A model generated the notes under the pieces. It was given only the letters and a program-made list of their open reading frames with translations. It was not told the DNA's origin and did not search any database. Shown here piece by piece: positions 1,754 to 58,388 of a DNA stretch of 64,000 bases. Position 1 is the stretch's first letter. Each line of letters opens with the position of its first letter. The position numbers and the translations under genes were made by a program. The stretch spans positions 1 to 64,000 of the forward strand of contig NZ_SDMQ01000012.1 in assembly GCF_004324755.1 (NCBI RefSeq), in the 5' to 3' direction. This DNA is from Propioniciclava sinopodophylli. GTDB lineage: Bacteria; Actinomycetota; Actinomycetes; Propionibacteriales; Propionibacteriaceae.

Positions 1754-3472
1754 ATGGTGCACGGACGCCGCGTGGCCGTAGCAGGACTGGCCCTGACCGC
1801 CGTCCTCGGCACCACCGCGTGCTCCACGGAGACCGTCCGCACCGGGGAGCGACCCAACGCGCCGACGTCCACCCCCTCGACCCGGACGGTGGACGCTGAC
1901 CCGCCCGCCGTCCGCCTCACCGAGCTGCCGGGCCACAGCGCACCGCGTCCCGGGTCCGAGGAGCAGACCTTCACCCGCAACCTGACCGACGAGTCCGGCC
2001 AGTTCACCTGGTCGGTGGTGGACGCCGAGGGCAATCCCACGGCGTACCGCGGCGGCGACGCGGTCGTGTTCGGCGACCCGGAGACGTACAACAAGATCCC
2101 CGGCGTCCTGACGTTCCGCGGCAACAACGCGCGGACGGGCGGCGCGTGGGGCACCGCGCAGATCTCCGAGCGCAAGCTCGACGTCGCGTGGACGAAGGAG
2201 ATCGGCGAGATCCGCGGCGAGGGCTCCTACTGGCCGGGCGCCGGCTGGACGGGCCAGCCCCTGCTCGTGCAGTGGCCGCGCGAGACCAAGGTCGCGATGG
2301 GGCTGGACGCCAAGTACGTCGACGACGACACGTTCGTGGAGGTGATCTACCCCGTCTTCGAGGGCAAAATCCACCGGCTGGACCTGCGCACGGGCGAGCC
2401 GACCAAGCCGCCCATCGAGGTGGGCTGGGGCTTCAAGGGCACGGCGTCCGTCGACCCGCGCGGCTACCCGCTGCTGTACGCCGGGCAGGGGCTCAACGAC
2501 ACCAACGGCACGATCGGCCCGTGGCGGCACCGGGTGTTCGACCTGATCCAGAACAAGGAGGTGTGGCACATCTCCGGGCTGGACGCCGCCGCGCCGCGCG
2601 TCGACTGGGGTGCGTTCGACTCCTCGGCGCTGGTGGACGCCGAGTCCGACACGCTGATGGTGCCGGCCGAGAACGGGCTCATCTACAAGGTGAAGCTCAA
2701 CAGCGCCTACGACGCCGCGGCGAAGACCGTCAGCATCGAGCCCGAGGTGACCCGCCTGCGCTACACCACCCCGGCCAGCGCGAAGTACGGCATCGAGAAC
2801 TCGGCGGTGGCCTACCGCAACCTCATGTTCGCCGCCGACAACGACGGCAACCTCTTCTCCTGGGACGCCACCACGCTCGAGATGCTGTGGATGCGCCAGG
2901 TGTACGACGACACGGACGCCTCGCTCGTGCTGGATGCCGCCGACGACGGCGTGTTCCTCTACACGGGCAACCAGGTCGACCACCGCGGCGCCACCGGCGG
3001 GGAACGGATCACGAACATCCGCAAGATCGACGCGCTGACCGGCAAGCAGGTGTGGCAGTACGACATCCCCGCCTACTACGACGCGGCCGTCAACGGCGGC
3101 GTCCTCGGCACGCCGATCGTGGGGCGCGGGCCGACCGCCGACATGGTGATCTTCAACGTGTCCCGGACGACAGCACCGCGCGAGGGAGACCTCGTGGCCC
3201 TGGACAAGAAGACCGGCGCCGTCATCTGGCGACGGCACCTGTCCAACTACTCGTGGAGCTCCCCCACCCTGCTGACCGGCTCCGAAGGCACGCAGTACGT
3301 CGTGCTGCCCGACAGCGACGGCGTTGTGCACCTGATCGACCCGCAGACCGGCGAGGACCTCTCGACCCTCTCCCTGGGCGGCAAGAACATCGAGGCCACC
3401 GTCTCCGCGTTCGGCGACATGCTGGTCGTGGCGACCTACGACCGGAAGATCCAAGGCATCCGCATCTCCTGA
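1754..3472 (+). CDS. PQQ-binding-like beta-propeller lipoprotein
   Basis: This 572-residue exported protein has a short signal sequence ending in a lipobox (LGTTACS, Cys about residue 22), so it is probably anchored to the outer face of the membrane. After a Pro/Thr-rich linker comes a series of WD/PQQ-type propeller blades with repeated patterns such as FRGNNARTGG, VSWDATTLEMLW and LDKKTGAVIWRR. The fold resembles BamB and PQQ dehydrogenases, but no PQQ-dehydrogenase catalytic residues are evident, so a binding or scaffold role is more likely than catalysis. The start was chosen for its GAGGAG ribosome site and the signal peptide. It ends just before a bidirectional terminator shared with the convergent protease gene. 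Confidence 0.82.
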   Translation: MVHGRRVAVAGLALTAVLGTTACSTETVRTGERPNAPTSTPSTRTVDADPPAVRLTELPGHSAPRPGSEEQTFTRNLTDESGQFTWSVVDAEGNPTAYRGGDAVVFGDPETYNKIPGVLTFRGNNARTGGAWGTAQISERKLDVAWTKEIGEIRGEGSYWPGAGWTGQPLLVQWPRETKVAMGLDAKYVDDDTFVEVIYPVFEGKIHRLDLRTGEPTKPPIEVGWGFKGTASVDPRGYPLLYAGQGLNDTNGTIGPWRHRVFDLIQNKEVWHISGLDAAAPRVDWGAFDSSALVDAESDTLMVPAENGLIYKVKLNSAYDAAAKTVSIEPEVTRLRYTTPASAKYGIENSAVAYRNLMFAADNDGNLFSWDATTLEMLWMRQVYDDTDASLVLDAADDGVFLYTGNQVDHRGATGGERITNIRKIDALTGKQVWQYDIPAYYDAAVNGGVLGTPIVGRGPTADMVIFNVSRTTAPREGDLVALDKKTGAVIWRRHLSNYSWSSPTLLTGSEGTQYVVLPDSDGVVHLIDPQTGEDLSTLSLGGKNIEATVSAFGDMLVVATYDRKIQGIRIS

Positions 3473-46502: not shown

Positions 46503-46559
46503 TTGTCTACTACTGTATGTCGGAGCAAGTCGTCCTGAATCACCCACAGGAGGACACCC

Positions 46560-47462
46560 GTGGTCAACGACGCCTCACCGCAAGGCACGCGCCTCGGCCG
46601 GCTGCGCCTGATCGGGCTCGCCGCGCCCCCCTTCTTCGTCTCCGGTCTGGTGTGCCTCCATCCGGCGCTCACCGCGGGTTTCGACAGCGAACGCGCCCAC
46701 CTGGTGCTCAGCGCAGTGCTGATCCTCAGCGCGGCCGTCTTCGGGTGGACCATGTTCAGGTCCCTGGGCCGGGCCCATGACGCGGCGCTCGAGGCCGAGC
46801 GGCTGTCGGCCGCCCTGCTGGAGCGCGACCGCATCGCCCGCGAACTGCACGACAGCCTCGCCCAGGTGCTGGGGGTCGCCCACCTCCGCCTCCGGGCCGT
46901 GGAGGCGCGACCATCCGTCGCCGCCGACGAGCGCACCCGGGCGGACGTGGCAGACCTCGCCGACCTGTGCCGCGAGGCACACCGCGACGTCCGGGAAGCG
47001 ATCCATGGGCTGAAGGACGCCCAGCGGTCCGACCGCTCCCTCCTCGACCACCTCGAGGACTACATCCGTGTCTTCTCCCGCACCAGCGGGGTTCCGACCA
47101 CCCTGGAGGCGTGCACGGAACGGGAGCTGGCCCTGCCCCCCAACGCCGAGGTGCAGGTGATCCGCGTGATCCAGGAGGCGCTCACCAACATCCGCTAGCA
47201 CGCGGGCGCGCGTTCGGCCCGCGTGCTCGTCAGGGCGGACGACGCGTCCGTCGACTTCGTCATCGCCGACGACGGGCAGGGCTTCGACGTGGCCCGGGCC
47301 ACCGGCGGTGACGGCTTCGGCCTGACCACCATGCGTGAGCGGACGGAATCCGTGCGCGGACGCCTCTGCCTGGAGTCCCGGCCCGGCGAGGGCACGCGCG
47401 TGACCGTCCACCTGCCCCGGACGGCGCCCGCCCGCAGCCGGGTCGAGGAGCTGACGGCGTGA
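46560..47462 (+). pseudogene. NarX/NreB-type sensor histidine kinase, interrupted by in-frame TAG
   Basis: The gene would encode about 300 residues. It has two membrane helices (about 14-34 and 46-66), a HisKA_3 domain with the phosphorylated histidine in RELHDSLAQVL (His97), and an ATPase domain. A TAG at 47196-47198 sits in the N-box (VIQEALTNIR-x-HAGA), where a Lys or Arg codon is expected. The rest (IADDGQGFDV, GFGLTTMRERT, SRPGEGTRVTV) continues in frame to overlap the response regulator as GTGA. The truncated kinase would lack the ATP site. It precedes the nrf genes and was probably their nitrite/nitrate or redox sensor. Confidence 0.85.
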
Positions 47463-52609: not shown

Positions 52610-53536
52610 ATGCTTGACCTCTCCCGCACCCTGCTCGCCCTGGCGACGGGCCTGCTGGCCCTCGCCCTGCTCGTCAACGTCGTCGTGGTCGCGACCAGGC
52701 GCCGGGCCCCGGCGGCCACGGCGGTCAGGCCCGTCGCGGTCGGGCGCGGGGGGTCCCACCCCGTCTCACCGCTCAGCCCCGCGGCGTTGGACGACGACGG
52801 TCCGGTCACCGCCGTCCGTACGAGCAAGCGTGGCGTGGCGTGGGCGGCCGACCGCTCGGTCGAACTGGCCCTGCTGGCCATCACCGTGGCGCTGGTGATC
52901 CGGTCGATCCACACCGGGCACGCCCCGTTCGCCAACCAGTACGAGTTCGCGTGCTCCTTCGCGTGGGGCATCACCGCGGCCTACGTCTTCTTCGAGCGTC
53001 GCTACGGCGTCCGCGCCCTGTCGCTGATGGTGCTGCCCCTCCCGCTGGCGATGCTCGGCTACGCCAGCACCGTCGGCTCGGAGGCGTCCGGGCTGATGCC
53101 CGCCCTGCAGAACCACCTGCTGCTGACCGCGCACGTGATCACCGCCGTCATCGCCTACGGTGCGGCTGGGGTGTCGGCCGGTGCCGCCGTCCTGTACCTG
53201 CTGCGCCCGCACCTGAAGTTCCCCGGCCTGCCGAGCGAGGACCTGCTCGAGGAGATCGGTTACCGCGCCATCGTCATCGCCTTCCCGATGCTCACGATCA
53301 TGATCATCCTCGGCGCCATCTGGGCGGACATCGCCTGGGGCCGCTACTGGAGTTGGGACCCGAAGGAGACCTCCGCCCTGGTGACCTGGCTCATCTACGG
53401 CGGCTACCTGCACGCCCGCGTGGTCCGGGACTGGCGTGGGAAGAAGACCGCCGCACTGCTGCTGCTGGGCTTCGCCGCCGTCCTGTTCACCTTCTTCGGG
53501 AACCTGTTCTTCGGCGGCCTGCACAGCTACGCGTGA
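52610..53536 (+). CDS. ccsA: Cytochrome c biogenesis protein CcsA (ResC)
   Basis: This 308-residue polytopic protein has about eight helices and the heme-handling WWD motif in WGRYWSWDPKETSALVTWL (about 243-261), with nearby conserved histidines. It is the second half of the System II cytochrome c synthetase. Its presence beside nrfHA provides the dedicated maturation machine for nine c-hemes made by the neighbouring operon. It begins two bases after resB and is coupled to it. Confidence 0.93.
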   Translation: MLDLSRTLLALATGLLALALLVNVVVVATRRRAPAATAVRPVAVGRGGSHPVSPLSPAALDDDGPVTAVRTSKRGVAWAADRSVELALLAITVALVIRSIHTGHAPFANQYEFACSFAWGITAAYVFFERRYGVRALSLMVLPLPLAMLGYASTVGSEASGLMPALQNHLLLTAHVITAVIAYGAAGVSAGAAVLYLLRPHLKFPGLPSEDLLEEIGYRAIVIAFPMLTIMIILGAIWADIAWGRYWSWDPKETSALVTWLIYGGYLHARVVRDWRGKKTAALLLLGFAAVLFTFFGNLFFGGLHSYA

Positions 53537-53549
53537 TCGGAGTCCACCC

Positions 53550-54155
53550 ATGAGCGCCCCCAGCACCGAACGCCCTTCCGTCGTCGAGGAACGCCCCGCC
53601 GGCTCGCGCCTGCGCACCCTGCTGGCCATCGCCGCCGTCACCGCCCTCGTGGTCGGCGGAGGTTGGTGGCTGTCCCGCCCCACCACCTACGGGGGGTCGG
53701 ACGCCGTGACCTCGGTCCGCATCGACGGGGCGGCCAGCACCCCGGTGGTCGGCGCGGTCGCGACCGACTTCACCGCCACCACCACCGCCGGTGAGGCCAT
53801 CTCGCTGGCCCAGTTGCGTGGCAGGCCTGTCTGGCTCACCTTCGGCGCCACGTGGTGCGCCCCCTGCCGGGTCGAGGCGCCGGACATCCAGGCCGCGCAC
53901 GCAGCCCAGACCCACGGCGTCCAGGTCGTCGCGGTCTACCTCGGCGAGGACGCCGCGGCAGTCGACCAGTTCGCGGACGCCCTGGGCCTCACCTACGCCC
54001 ACGTCCCCGACCCCGACCGGGCACTCGCCTCGGCGTGGGGGGTGAACGGGATCCCCGTGCACTACTTCATCGACTCGGCGGGCACCATTCGCGCCACCCG
54101 CGTCGGCATCGTCGGGCCGGACCAGATCCAGGACACCCTTGCCACCTTGGACTAG
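53550..54155 (+). CDS. Membrane-anchored TlpA/ResA-like thioredoxin
   Basis: This 201-residue protein has one N-terminal helix (about 23-40) and an extracytoplasmic thioredoxin domain with the active site WCAPC (Cys103, Cys106) and the cis-Pro loop [12 protein letters not shown]. ResA-type proteins keep the CXXCH cysteines of apocytochromes reduced before heme attachment, which fits the preceding resB and ccsA. The first ATG 13 bases after ccsA was chosen; upstream in-frame codons overlap ccsA. Confidence 0.88.
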
Positions 54156-54256: not shown

Positions 54257-54769
54257 ATGAGAGCGCTGACCGAGGCGGAGGTCCGCGACAGCTTCGTGAA
54301 CGCCACCGAGGCCGAACTGGAGCGCCTGGAGCCGCCCTGGTGGTTCGGGGCGACCCTGTGGGAGTCGCTGGACTACCTCGGCTGGGTCGACCCGGCGCTC
54401 CCCGAGCGCGGCTACCTCGTCTCGGAAACGTCGTTCGGCGTGGTCGGGGTCATCCTGCGCCTGCCGAAGAACCGACCCCACGGACGCCGCGCGCTCTGCA
54501 ACCTCTGCTGGACCCAGCACCCGGGTCAGGGCGCCCTGCTGATGGTCGCACGCCGCGCGGGGAAGGCCGGGCTCAACCACAACACCGTCGGCACCTACAT
54601 CTGCGCCGACCTGGCGTGCTCGCTCTACCTGCGGGGGCTGCGCCGGTCGGTGGGCGGCGGGCGGATGCCCGAGACTCTCGACCAGGACGCCCGCATCCAC
54701 CGGCTGGGCGAAAACGTCGAGGACTTCCTGGCCCGCGTGGTCGACAGCGACGCGCCGCGACTGGCCTAG
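54257..54769 (+). CDS. FBP domain protein (treble-clef zinc finger, EF-G binding)
   Basis: This 170-residue protein matches the FBP/FusB-C family. It has a helical start (LTEAEVRDSFVNATEAE) and a treble-clef zinc finger with ligands in LCNLCWTQHPG and YICADLACSLYLRGL. Family members bind elongation factor G on the ribosome; FusB gives fusidic-acid resistance, but most actinobacterial FBP proteins have no known phenotype. It has its own leaderless-type promoter (TACAAC, 6 bases, ATG), so it is not part of the maturation operon. TAG stop doubles as a -10 box for a downstream mini-frame. Confidence 0.8.
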   Translation: MRALTEAEVRDSFVNATEAELERLEPPWWFGATLWESLDYLGWVDPALPERGYLVSETSFGVVGVILRLPKNRPHGRRALCNLCWTQHPGQGALLMVARRAGKAGLNHNTVGTYICADLACSLYLRGLRRSVGGGRMPETLDQDARIHRLGENVEDFLARVVDSDAPRLA

Positions 54770-54778
54770 GCTCGGCCC

Positions 54779-54844
54779 ATGGGCACCGAGCCGCGCCGCA
54801 CCACCCCCGGGCGTGTGCCTAGCTCCTCCTTAAGGATGAGCTAG
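54779..54844 (+). pseudogene. Possible 5' remnant of a leaderless gene cut off at a palindrome
   Basis: TAGGCT, 6 bases and ATG reproduce the leaderless start pattern seen across the window, but the frame (MGTEPRRTTPGRVP then SSSLRMS) ends after 21 codons inside a palindrome. A real gene may have been truncated here. It may also be a chance frame. Confidence 0.3.
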
Positions 54845-54845
54845 G
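54818..54845. repeat. 28-base near-perfect palindrome
   Basis: CCTAGCTCCTCCTT and AAGGATGAGCTAGG are complementary except at one pair. It separates the FBP gene and mini-frame from the small peptide gene and may be a terminator, operator or element end. Confidence 0.65.
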
Positions 54846-54932
54846 CCATACCTTCGACCCATTTCAAGGGTCCCCGTCCTCACGTACCCTGCGGAGTGGA
54901 CTATCAGGCGCGCACCCGTTCAGGAGAAGGCA

Positions 54933-55064
54933 ATGAAGTCTCTACTCGCATCGATCGTCGCCGTCGCTGTGCTCGGCAGCGGCGTGATCCCCATCGCCGC
55001 CATCCAGGGCGACTCGCTGCCGCCGTGGCTGTGCAACCTGTTCCCCATGTTCTGCAGGCGCTGA
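54933..55064 (+). CDS. Small secreted peptide with two cysteines, 43 residues
   Basis: This frame encodes a basic start (MKSLL), a hydrophobic core (ASIVAVAVLGSGVIPIAAI) and a short tail QGDSLPPWLCNLFPMFCRR with Cys34 and Cys41 separated by six residues. It looks like a signal or anchor plus a small Cys-bracketed, Trp/Phe-rich peptide. An AGGAGA site 6-7 bases upstream and its own terminator (55109-55135) support a real monocistronic gene. I know no family. It lies about 530 bases before a complete polytopic kinase/regulator pair. It could be a signalling peptide, a small bacteriocin-like product or a structural membrane peptide. Confidence 0.55.
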   Translation: MKSLLASIVAVAVLGSGVIPIAAIQGDSLPPWLCNLFPMFCRR

Positions 55065-55108
55065 GCACACTCGGTCAACGGCTGCCGCCGTCACCTGCCC
55101 CCACGCTT

Positions 55109-55135
55109 GACGCCCCGGCCCTTCGCCGGGGCGTC
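55109..55135 (+). terminator. Terminator of the small peptide gene
   Basis: GACGCCCCGGC and GCCGGGGCGTC form a perfect 11-bp stem with loop CCTTC, followed by a short T-containing stretch. Confidence 0.75.
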
Positions 55136-55182
55136 CAGTGTTTGCGCGGACGGGAAAGAATGGGAAACCTTGGGGGAAAGGG

Positions 55183-55224
55183 GAGGGCGGGGCCACCACG
55201 ACTCGCACGAGGCGCCCCGCCCTC
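55183..55224 (-). terminator. Hairpin downstream of the small membrane protein gene
   Basis: GAGGGCGGGGC and GCCCCGCCCTC pair over an 18-base loop just after the stop of the minus-strand gene. On that strand it is followed by pyrimidine runs with T tracts. Confidence 0.55.
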
Positions 55225-55231
55225 TTCGTCG

Positions 55232-55438
55232 TCAGCGCTCGCGCCAACGACCGGGGCCCTGGGATGTTCTCTTCGCCCACGGGGGGAGGACGGTCAACAA
55301 ACACCCAACGACGAGCCCCATCATCGCTCCCGCTCCCCCGAAGGTCCGGGCGTCGCCGGCCAGGAAGCCGCTGACCACCCCGATGATGAGGCCGATCGCC
55401 ACGCAGGCGACGACCAACACATCGGATCGGACGGTCAC
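55232..55438 (-). CDS. Small two-helix membrane protein
   Basis: This 68-residue protein has two predicted membrane helices (about 7-27, VLVVACVAIGLIIGVVSGFL, and 34-53, GAGAMMGLVVGCLLTVLPP) and a basic C-terminus. GTG start follows a clear GAGGAG site. No family is recognised. It lies between the secreted peptide gene and the divergent kinase gene, so an accessory role to either is possible but unproven. Confidence 0.6.
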   Translation of the reverse strand: MTVRSDVLVVACVAIGLIIGVVSGFLAGDARTFGGAGAMMGLVVGCLLTVLPPWAKRTSQGPGRWRER

Positions 55439-55593
55439 GGCACTCCTCGCTGGCCACAGGGGGAACGGGCGCAGTCCCCAAGGTAGCCCGCCCCCGCCAC
55501 CCGGAGAATCGGGAAAAAGTGCAGATCATCCCCCCACGAAAGTAGGAACCTGACGAGCCTCGCGGGGGCGCCCACCGTGCCACACTGGCGGCC

Positions 55594-56763
55594 ATGACCG
55601 ACCCTGCCCCCGCGGTGCGCGCCAAGGCGCGCATGATGCCCCGTTGGGTCGCGCGGTTGGGCGCCAGCGGCGTCCCCGAGGCCACCTGCGGCCTGTTCGC
55701 CTTCGCCTACACCGAGGCCTTCTCCGACCCGACACGCGTCCGGAGCACCCTCGACGTCATCATCGAGATCGCGATCTGCTTCTTCGCCGGCGCGACGGGC
55801 CGATGGCCCCGGGTGGGCACGCTGGGCGTCGGCGCCTGCCTGCTCTGGATGGCGCTGACCCCCGCCGGCATCAGCGCCGCCTTCTTCGTGCTCTTCATCC
55901 CCATCGTCTCCAACGGCGCCCATGGCCGGACGATCCTGCGCGACATGGCGGCGCTGCTCTACTTCGCCCTCGCCCTGGTCCGCACCGTCCCGCTGAACAC
56001 CAGCGTCAGCGATGTCGCCCAGACGGTGGTGATCTGGGTCATCCTGGTCGGCCTCGCGTGGGGCACCGGACGTACGGTCAGCCGCCTGCGGGAGGAGGGC
56101 AAACGCCAGGCTGACCTGCGCGCGGCGTCCCTGCGCAGCCAGCGGCGCAGCATCGCCCGCGACCTGCACGACACCGTCTCGTACGCGACGACGACGATGA
56201 TCATGCGCGCCGAGCAGATCAAGCTGCGCACCACCGACGACCCGGAGCTGACCCAGGACCTCGACTTCATCATCTCCACCGGTCGCCGGTCGGTCCGCGA
56301 CCTGCGCGGCATGATGGAGACCCTGCGCCGCAACGACCCCGAACTCGACCTCGAGGAGGACGCACCCTGGCGCCTGGTCGCCGTCGGCGACGTCATCGCT
56401 GACCGGCGGGCCGAGCTGGCCGCCCACGGCTACCGCCTCGACGTCAGCGCGGACGCCGAGGCACTCGACTCCCTGCCCAGCTCGGTGCGGGAGACGCTCG
56501 CCAAGCTCATCGTCGAGGCGACCTCCAACATGGTCAAGCACGCCGGGCGCGGCCCGTGCCGCCTCATCATCGAGGTGCACGACGACATGCTCGAGGCGGT
56601 CTTCACCAACCCCCTGCGTCCCGGGCGCGATCAGCGCAAGGCCGGGCATGGCCTCGGCATCATCGGCGCGCTGGAGCGCGTCGAGGCGCTCGGGGGGGAG
56701 CTGGAGGCCACAGCGGCATCCGGGACGTGGATCCTGCGTGCCCAGCTGCCGCTGGGGGGATAA
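55594..56763 (+). CDS. Sensor histidine kinase, polytopic, HisKA_3 type
   Basis: This 389-residue kinase has about five to six membrane helices (30-165) without a large outer domain, then a HisKA_3 dimerisation domain with RSIARDLHDTVSY (His192) and an ATPase domain (VEATSNMVKHAG N-box and GHGLGIIGALERV G-box). The motifs are complete, unlike the kinase at 46560. A membrane-buried sensor of this type detects hydrophobic ligands, peptides or membrane state. It overlaps the regulator gene (TAATG), so the two are one unit. CACACT lies about 7 bases before the ATG. Confidence 0.88.
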   Translation: MTDPAPAVRAKARMMPRWVARLGASGVPEATCGLFAFAYTEAFSDPTRVRSTLDVIIEIAICFFAGATGRWPRVGTLGVGACLLWMALTPAGISAAFFVLFIPIVSNGAHGRTILRDMAALLYFALALVRTVPLNTSVSDVAQTVVIWVILVGLAWGTGRTVSRLREEGKRQADLRAASLRSQRRSIARDLHDTVSYATTTMIMRAEQIKLRTTDDPELTQDLDFIISTGRRSVRDLRGMMETLRRNDPELDLEEDAPWRLVAVGDVIADRRAELAAHGYRLDVSADAEALDSLPSSVRETLAKLIVEATSNMVKHAGRGPCRLIIEVHDDMLEAVFTNPLRPGRDQRKAGHGLGIIGALERVEALGGELEATAASGTWILRAQLPLGG

Positions 56764-57425
56764 TGGACACCATGGCCAGACCCGTGACTGTGGCGATCGT
56801 CGACGACGACGCCCTCGTCCGAGCCGCGCTGGTCGCCTACCTGGCCACCACCGACGACTTCGAGGTGAAGCACGAGATCAACAACGGGGCCGAGGCGGTC
56901 ACGACGATCACGCGCAACCCGGTGGACATCGTCGTGATGGACGTCCGGATGCCCAAGCTCGACGGCATCCAGGCCACGGCCGCCCTGCGCCGCACGCTGC
57001 CGGACGTGAAGGTCCTCGTCATCACCTCTTTCGACGAGGACGGCGCCGTGCGCGACGCGCTGCGTGCGGGCGCCAACGGCTTCCTGCTCAAGGACACCTC
57101 GCCGGCCGGGCTGGTCGAGGCGCTCCGGGCGGTCATGCAGGGCACTTCGGTCGTCTCGCCCGGTCCGATCACGAGCCTGCTGCTCAACGACAAGCGGGCG
57201 ACCCGCCCCAGTCCCGCCCCCGAACTCGGCCTGAGCCCGCGCGAGTTGGAGATCCTCCGGTTGCTGTGCGCCGCGTACAGCAACACCGAAATCGCCGAGG
57301 AGCTCTTCGTTTCGGAGTCGACCGTCAAGACGCACGTGTCCGCGATCATGACGAAGATGGGCGTCCAGTCGCGCCTCAAGGCCGTCGTCCGCGCCTACGA
57401 GCTGGGCCTCGTCGAGCACGCCTGA
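56763..57425 (+). CDS. LuxR/NarL-type response regulator
   Basis: This 220-residue regulator pairs with the upstream kinase. The receiver has VDDD (13-16), phosphorylation site Asp60 (IVVMDVRMPKLDG), the switch residues ITSF and GFLLKDTSP, and a LuxR helix-turn-helix at about 155-205 (LSPRELEILRLLCAAYSNTE, STVKTHVSAIMTKM). Start overlaps the kinase stop as TAATG. Its targets are unknown; nearby candidates are the small peptide and membrane-protein genes (inference). Confidence 0.92.
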   Translation: MDTMARPVTVAIVDDDALVRAALVAYLATTDDFEVKHEINNGAEAVTTITRNPVDIVVMDVRMPKLDGIQATAALRRTLPDVKVLVITSFDEDGAVRDALRAGANGFLLKDTSPAGLVEALRAVMQGTSVVSPGPITSLLLNDKRATRPSPAPELGLSPRELEILRLLCAAYSNTEIAEELFVSESTVKTHVSAIMTKMGVQSRLKAVVRAYELGLVEHA

Positions 57426-57497: not shown

Positions 57498-58388
57498 GTG
57501 AACCCCGACCAGACCGACACCTTCGCTGATGTCCTGACCGCCGCGATCCAGGCGCGGGGACTGTCCCTGGAGCGCATCCGCGCGCGCCTCGACGCCGCGG
57601 ACGTCCCGGTCAGCATCGCGACCCTGAGCTACTGGCAGTCGGGCCGCTCGCTCCCCACCCGCTCCCGCAGCTACCACACGCTGGTCGAGCTAGAGAAGAT
57701 CCTCAACCTGGAGCCGGGCCACCTCACCCAACACACGCACACCGCCGACGGCCGCACCCGCCGCGAGCTGTTCGAGTGGCAGAACGTCGTCCCCTCCCGC
57801 GACCTGGCCACCCAGATCATCGACGACCTGGGCATCGACATGCAGGGCCAGCTGACGCGCGTGACCATGCACGACCTGCTGGAGGTGGATGCCGACCGCA
57901 GCGAGACGTCCCTCACCGTGAGAGTGGTCTGGCGCACCGAGCGGCAGGGCCTCCACCGCTGGGCGGTCGTGAACGAGTCCGACATGGAGACCGAGGAGGG
58001 GCAGTCCATCGAGCCACTGTTCGGCTGCGCGCTCGGCGAGGTCGTGGAGGTGCCCGAGCGGCAGTTGCTGGTCGCCGAGATGCTCGCCCCACGCGCCATG
58101 CAGCGCGGCGAGCTGTTCACGTCCGACTACCGCCTGACGTTCGGGCGCACCTCCATCCCGTCATTCCGGATGCTGCGGGCCGTCTCCGACCCCGTGAGAG
58201 CCCTGTCGCTGGCCGTCCGCTTCTCCCCGTCGGCCCTGCCCACGCGGGTGCGCGCGGGCGTCCAGCCCGGCCTGGAGGACGCGGAGCCGAGCGAGACCGT
58301 CCCCGTGCCGCTGGCCCGGAACGAGGCCCAGTTCGTGTGGGCGGATGCCAAGCCCGGCGTGTACTCGCTGCACTGGGACTGGGACTGA
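57498..58388 (+). CDS. XRE-type helix-turn-helix protein with large C-terminal domain
   Basis: This 296-residue protein has an N-terminal XRE-like helix-turn-helix (about 8-75: FADVLTAAIQARGLSLERIR, VSIATLSYWQSGRSLPTRSR) and an unrecognised beta-rich domain (about 100-295, with LFGCALGEVVEVPERQLLVA). GTG start sits 6 bases after GACAAT with no ribosome site, the leaderless pattern. It may be a DNA-binding regulator, but helix-turn-helix domains of this kind also occur in non-regulatory proteins. The next gene overlaps its end in another frame. Confidence 0.75.
   Translation: MNPDQTDTFADVLTAAIQARGLSLERIRARLDAADVPVSIATLSYWQSGRSLPTRSRSYHTLVELEKILNLEPGHLTQHTHTADGRTRRELFEWQNVVPSRDLATQIIDDLGIDMQGQLTRVTMHDLLEVDADRSETSLTVRVVWRTERQGLHRWAVVNESDMETEEGQSIEPLFGCALGEVVEVPERQLLVAEMLAPRAMQRGELFTSDYRLTFGRTSIPSFRMLRAVSDPVRALSLAVRFSPSALPTRVRAGVQPGLEDAEPSETVPVPLARNEAQFVWADAKPGVYSLHWDWD

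Follow-up and report, generated by a model that had tools for sequence, protein, structure and literature searches.

In a 64,000-nucleotide stretch of the Propioniciclava sinopodophylli genome (contig NZ_SDMQ01000012.1, positions 1 to 64,000; hereafter the window) a 43-codon gene for a small two-cysteine peptide precursor lies close to the genes for a membrane-buried sensor histidine kinase and its LuxR/NarL-type response regulator. We find that this gene is conserved, that it belongs to a family whose members end in a short segment with two cysteines and a proline (here termed the ring), that the family is genetically paired with one part of the tree of HisKA_3 kinases, and that the peptides covary with the sensor part of those kinases. 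From these sequence comparisons we favour, with moderate confidence, the reading that the peptide would be exported and that its ring would be the cognate extracytoplasmic ligand of the adjoining kinase. The layout of a peptide-signalling system had been proposed earlier from the letters of the window alone (the original prediction), and both the conservation of the gene and its family-wide adjacency to kinases support that proposal. The genes and elements concerned are:

54933..55064, plus strand: ring-peptide precursor gene, 43 amino acids, ATG start (homologues; alignments A2 and A5).
55032..55055, plus strand: two-cysteine ring CNLFPMFC, a C-x6-C variant (alignment).
54922..54926, plus strand: ribosome-binding site AGGAG, six bases 5' of the ATG.
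55594..56763, plus strand: sensor histidine kinase (HisKA_3, Pfam E 9.2e-10) with a six-helix membrane-buried sensor, as modelled, and a DesK-like catalytic core.
56763..57425, plus strand: LuxR/NarL-type response regulator (Response_reg, GerE), its start overlapping the kinase stop.
54257-54769, plus strand: FBP_C zinc-finger gene (Pfam E 2.9e-49), upstream of the peptide gene.

The 43-codon open reading frame (ORF), whose full translation is MKSLLASIVAVAVLGSGVIPIAAIQGDSLPPWLCNLFPMFCRR, is on comparative grounds a real gene. Its product has the architecture of a precursor, with a short positively charged start followed by a hydrophobic leader, a spacer and a two-cysteine tail (QGDSLPPWLCNLFPMFCRR). 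The Cys-Cys frame, its good ribosome-binding site and the tail had all been read correctly in the original prediction, and relatives of the gene likewise carry purine-rich stretches ahead of the start.

A single-sequence search with the 43-residue frame found relatives in the same genus, and a seven-member profile matched seven of 13 Propioniciclava genomes (E 2.3e-22 to 7.5e-18), its next-best match among 198 Propionibacteriaceae genomes lying at E 8.5e-4. The residues invariant in the seven genus peptides (A2) are M, K, G, P, W, C, P and C. The order FBP gene, peptide, orthologous kinase is kept in six of the seven genomes; in the seventh (G002) the contig breaks off shortly past the peptide, within a frame that on visual inspection looks like the beginning of the kinase and that was not reported by tblastn. 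Propioniciclava soli, P. flava and P. tarda are among the sources of the closest kinases (seven loci). Ring peptides, one or more per genome, adjoin a kinase in 12 of the 13 genomes, G002 being counted for a peptide where its contig stops; the exception is G008, which is 72% complete and whose contig begins at the orthologous kinase, with the upstream side falling outside it. Differences at codon positions 1/2/3 in the three closest pairs number 13/9/14, 17/13/20 and 13/6/17. Because the sequences are too divergent this synonymous/nonsynonymous test is weak and, given its weakness, we make the coding case from the invariant residues and the gene neighbourhood.

The sharp gap in E values after the seven genomes suggested a family confined to the genus, an idea ruled out by weak matches in other genera (G110, G020 and G174). 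These are short ORFs with the same type of tail, each adjoining a HisKA_3 kinase and a LuxR regulator in different gene orders. Profiles were then widened stepwise to ten and to 22 members in iterated searches that used no kinase input; several of the 22 profile rows had been recognised through their adjoining kinase, but the 32 test matches described below were not picked in this way. Across the 198 Propionibacteriaceae genomes the 22-sequence profile gave these 32 new matches outside its own rows (E<=0.0011), all of which end in a two-cysteine ring, that of G009 lacking its proline and that of G027 bearing a long tail. By our own tally, with profile rows counted, members are present in 46 of the 198 genomes and in six of 29 genus codes (g1, g4, g9, g16, g17 and g29). 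Conservation of the frame, on which the original prediction depended, thus extends from the genus to a wider family found beside kinases.

Variation within the ring is limited. Among 56 peptide-kinase pairs, distinct in the last 20 residues, eight residues separate the cysteines in 48, six (the window type) in seven and nine in one. The 48 eight-spaced rings have proline at position 5 in 46 cases and at position 8 in 44, with the consensus C-D-[LV]-F-P-W-[WL]-P-G-C. The only columns invariant over the 53 members of alignment A5 are C, P and C; left out of A5, for rings or tails that do not fit the pattern, are the members from G009 and G027 together with G007:C208 and G009:C3. Some A5 rows start partway into the sequence, and this affects the statistics on the leader. 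As had been suspected from the window peptide, this family resembles none that is recognised, and it is not covered by any family in Pfam, NCBIfam or the PDB. At a cut-off of E<=0.1, a given Pfam family matched at most one of the 53 members and a given NCBIfam family at most two, the best E value being 0.0073 and none of the matches being to AgrD. A search of PDB sequences with the 53-member profile gave a sole match, at E 0.23 and to the leader only. The NCBIfam model NF052677, for ribosomally synthesised and post-translationally modified (RiPP) LWPPW peptides, matched one of the 53 members (E 0.024), and we do not assign the family to it. In class-level profile searches beyond the family, in which the best candidates per genome (up to 18) were scored, leader-only matches dominate. 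No description of such peptides was found in the titles and abstract openings of open-access PMC articles, a scope that leaves out subscription papers and preprints.

The strongest feature of the family is its position in the genome. Measured from the profile match to the stop-to-stop frame of the kinase, the distance to a HisKA_3 kinase is at most 0.8 kb for 30 of the 32 new matches. Among weaker matches (E 0.0024-0.0209; 28 of 30 fetched), which we split according to whether the profile was aligned to position 39 or beyond, a kinase is near seven of the 13 that reach the ring and none of the 15 that cover the leader only. A ring caller requiring a strict ring and a leader hydropathy of at least 2.0 was positive at 28 of the 32 test loci and at none of 20 paralogous-kinase loci (from five genus genomes), 29 loci holding the kinases from other families that matched best, or the 15 leader-only loci. 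Lowering the leader threshold to 1.6 brought this to 29 of the 32 test loci and two of the 20 paralogous loci, with no call at the 29 other-family or the 15 leader-only loci; a relaxed ring gave at most three calls among the 20 paralogous and three among the 29 other-family loci.

The same association is seen in the kinases. When 86 kinases are placed on a quickly built, long-branched tree, the label 'has peptide' requires 7 changes compared with 25.6 in shuffles, none of 500 shuffles being as low; the group labelled as lacking a peptide includes at least two caller misses (L060 and L036), with L202 and L282 uncertain. Two of the paralogous loci, L275 with a relaxed ring peptide and L282 with an uncalled frame ending CRVIPIRCPR, are both placed in peptide-bearing parts of the tree. 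A kinase profile run over 325 genomes of the class, with the best candidates per genome (up to six) scored, gave E 7.9e-141 for the window kinase and 5.5e-42 for the best kinase of another family. In 35 of the 56 pairs the two genes are on opposite strands with the peptide gene 5' of the kinase; it is 5' on the same strand in 12, 3' on the same strand in seven and 3' on the opposite strand in two. That gene order varies while the pairing holds speaks against inheritance of one frozen operon. Finally, in Mantel tests on the 54 usable pairs, distances between peptides correlate with those between kinase sensors (rho 0.25, p 0.001; given the catalytic domain, 0.20, p 0.002) and less so with those between catalytic domains (rho 0.14, p 0.023; given the sensor, 0.02, p 0.38). 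Peptide distances therefore track the sensor better than the catalytic domain, the direction that a ligand-receptor pairing predicts.

Some genomes hold more than one such locus: two or three, with a kinase near each, occur in G182, G066, G060, G174, G028, G005 and G156, which suggests parallel private channels. In G009 two deviating ring peptides lie beside kinases (L275 2594-2809, plus strand, and L207 about 2998-3153, plus strand), one with ten residues between the cysteines and one without the first proline. A Cys-x8-Cys precursor without the proline pattern is found in another family of the class (G618; L250 1495-1659, plus strand), ending about 100 bp ahead of a HisKA_3 kinase.

The original prediction of a kinase with a sensor of membrane helices and a LuxR regulator is confirmed for both proteins by their Pfam domains, and a structural model gives the sensor six helices. 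The model, computed with seven sequences (mean predicted local distance difference test score 73.5, predicted template modelling score 0.37), joins these helices by short loops and continues the sixth into a long dimerisation helix. In a Foldseek search DesK structures were its eleven best matches, the match being good in the catalytic core only. As the modelled sensor consists of six helices and short loops, a ligand would act within the membrane part or at its outer edge.

Lysine or arginine precedes the hydrophobic core in 51 of the 53 members, which makes insertion into the membrane or export across it likely, and from its sequence we regard the peptide as probably exported. The spacer from the helix to the first cysteine ranges from 5 to 28 residues, and this variability points to the ring as the working part; a disulfide between the two outside cysteines would be the simplest closure of that ring. 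From the 32 test loci 113 neighbouring ORFs were scanned against Pfam, which matched 56 families, and the 25 most frequent were examined. Only ABC_tran (10), AAA_21 (8) and SMC_N (4) have more than three ORFs. A two-motif signature of ATP-binding cassette (ABC) proteins was found at two of 32 test, four of 20 paralogous, six of 29 other-family and one of 15 leader-only loci; as it is no commoner than beside control kinases, we do not claim an ABC exporter as partner. PG_binding_1 proteins occur in a few loci (3 ORFs, including L189 250-1404, minus strand, and L196 4248-5000, plus strand) and are possibly adaptor subunits of exporters.

Two further elements flank the peptide gene:

54817..54846, no strand assigned: near-perfect palindrome of 30 bp, 86 bp 5' of the peptide ATG; candidate operator.
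55109..55135, plus strand: strong, T-poor stem-loop after the peptide gene (folding compared with shuffles); probable transcript end.

The palindrome is a candidate operator of the LuxR-type regulator. Its core, CTCCNNCTWWAGGANGAG, has a single exact match in the genome, as would suit local autoregulation; it can be made out in G006, G011 and G012 and to some extent in G001, though not in G002 or G005. The 56-base stretch that holds the stem-loop folds far better than shuffles (z -5.95), and we regard the stem-loop as the probable transcript end of the peptide gene. Of the terminator originally proposed here, the strong stem-loop stands; the T run of an intrinsic terminator is missing, and a scan of the plus strand for terminators listed nothing at this position.

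According to the model that we favour, the 43-codon gene would give rise to an exported precursor, and the Cys-Pro-Cys segment at its C terminus, with a disulfide as the probable closure, would act as ligand of the neighbouring kinase. The kinase would signal to its LuxR-type regulator, which would be likely to regulate the peptide gene by way of the palindrome ahead of it, along with distal genes. The steps of export, closure of the ring, membrane release, binding and autoregulation, and the direction of the effect (activation or repression), are inferred.

A number of observations weigh against this model. AxA motifs occur in 23 of the 53 members, compared with a shuffled mean of 23.0, and signal-peptidase release of a free peptide is therefore without statistical support. 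No maturase or exporter family is common to the 32 test loci, as judged from the 25 most frequent neighbour families. Genome-wide, the palindrome core shows no enrichment (10 matches with up to 2 mismatches, compared with 42 for the backward control), so that the regulon search with it came to nothing; it was not seen in the other genera, where the best dyads vary from locus to locus, and for that reason no family-wide operator is claimed. The Mantel correlations are modest in size. Two of the 32 test peptides, in G057 and G027, have no HisKA_3 kinase within 3 kb (loci L178 and L194; the former instead has two ABC-type ATPase frames), and two of the 20 paralogous loci (L268 and L284) become positive with the looser leader threshold of 1.6. 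In G007 (L056) the orthologous kinase directly follows the FBP gene with no peptide between them, and ring peptides adjoin two other kinases of that genome. The pairing is hence not absolute, and co-occurrence of peptide and kinase holds for six of the seven peptide-bearing genus genomes, the contig of the seventh ending too early, and fails in G007.

Some of these points would suit a different role. The product could be a feedback modulator that stays anchored by its helix, as MgrB does, and tunes the kinase from outside through its two-cysteine tail, perhaps by redox, rather than a diffusible signal. MgrB is encoded away from phoPQ. It is described as a protein of 47 residues that acts on a sensor kinase, whose transmembrane region is needed, in which C28 and C39 are the most important residues of the outside part and whose activity is affected by the periplasmic redox state (PMC8404706). 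The size of the peptides, their single helix and their two outside cysteines fit this description, a helix and a cysteine pair being predicted in the members here; the lack of enrichment of AxA motifs would fit too, as would an operator upstream of the peptide gene. Against it, a spacer of 5 to 28 residues sits poorly with a fixed contact at the membrane, AxA sites of textbook form occur in some members (for example L059 and L060), and conservation lies in the ring of 8-10 residues and not in the helix. C28 and C39 of MgrB are moreover ten residues apart, the kinase class differs, and MgrB was not among the Pfam or NCBIfam matches of the 53 members at E<=0.1. We regard this modulator role as less likely than the ligand reading, though a serious rival to it.

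That the peptide is instead an output, an antimicrobial or surface-active ring peptide made under the control of a neighbouring system that senses something else, seems to us quite improbable. The ring is aromatic and proline-rich, the predominant arrangement, with the peptide gene 5' of the kinase on the opposite strand, is one that a regulated output gene could well have, and ABC_tran is the commonest neighbour family; yet the ABC signatures are no more frequent than at control kinases, and covariation with the sensor is not expected of a mere output. It is formally conceivable, and extremely improbable, that the frame arose by chance or is a leader peptide without a function of its own. It is very short and its codon-position test is weak, but the profile matches, the invariant C, P and C in 53 members, the adjacency to a kinase of 30 of 32 matches and the persistence of the gene in several orders and on either strand rule this out. 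We retain the ligand reading as the preferred one.

Known systems offer partial parallels. The AgrBDCA system of staphylococci likewise has a small cysteine peptide with a hydrophobic leader, a membrane-buried kinase and a short ring. Agr systems employ an HPK10 kinase and a LytTR regulator, in contrast to the HisKA_3 kinase and LuxR regulator here, and no AgrB-like protease is found among the 25 neighbour families examined. With a cysteine at both ends of the ring, a disulfide is expected rather than an Agr-type thiolactone, and the profile for AgrD, the precursor of autoinducing peptides (AIP), matched none of the 53 members (Pfam and NCBIfam, E<=0.1). In ComQXPA of Bacillus subtilis, ComP is polytopic and ComA is a LuxR-type regulator, a combination recovered here in the HisKA_3 and GerE domains and the six modelled sensor helices. 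ComP is described as a NarL-family kinase (PMC8895600) and comQXPA as four adjacent genes on one strand (PMC4008528). The two systems are alike in the adjacency of a peptide gene to such a kinase and its regulator. They differ in that the precursors here have a hydrophobic leader and two invariant cysteines, that gene order and strand vary, and that no isoprenyl transferase (ComQ) is among the same 25 families. The window kinase also resembles DesK of the DesK-DesR system in its catalytic core and, by the model, in combining a HisKA_3 domain with a membrane-only sensor. DesK is not known to have a partner peptide. DesK is reported to detect membrane thickness (PMC11237406).

The remaining neighbours of the peptide gene are less clearly connected with it. 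The most prominent is:

55232..55438, minus strand: two-helix membrane ORF, 68 amino acids, 167 bp past the peptide stop.

A two-helix membrane gene about 170 bases on had been included in the proposed layout. The ORF is indeed there, on the opposite strand and not in line with the peptide and kinase genes, which rules out an operon of peptide, two-helix ORF and kinase. Six of the seven genus loci with the peptide have it too; it is missing along with the peptide in G007, and at E 0.01 it had no match in the fetched loci of other genera; it is the weakest part of the layout. Elsewhere in the window there is a second HisKA_3 kinase-like frame (46539-47195, plus strand, Pfam E 3.4e-12), beside which no strict ring peptide was called. 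The ORF after the regulator (57498-58388, plus strand) is conserved, with 62-86% identity in relatives, and has no Pfam or NCBIfam family. Upstream of the FBP gene lies an ORF with a CAPC motif (53436-54155, plus strand), which we take to be thioredoxin-like; the proximity of a thiol-handling type of protein to a Cys-Cys peptide gene is perhaps due to chance.

Signalling by peptide-kinase pairs is already known. The present case is new in its family of rings, in that these accompany HisKA_3 kinases in Actinobacteria, and in that no maturation gene appears to be shared among the loci. A 2016 review reported quorum sensing in 25 of 342 actinobacterial genera and lists autoinducer 2 (AI-2) for Propionibacterium (PMC4748050). 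We propose tentatively, as a possibility falling a little short of an even chance, that the peptides represent a new class of ribosomally made actinobacterial signals: exported, disulfide-ringed peptides of 8-10 residues that would act on private membrane-buried HisKA_3 kinases, with several pairs in a genome (for example G182, G066, G060, G174 and G028), occurring across the Propionibacteriaceae and possibly outside it (G618, L250), and needing no maturase or exporter dedicated to them. If the ligand reading is correct, the peptide-kinase pairs of 46 Propionibacteriaceae genomes would provide testable ligands for kinases that lack assigned signals, and would constitute natural, mutually distinct pairs of receptor and ligand.

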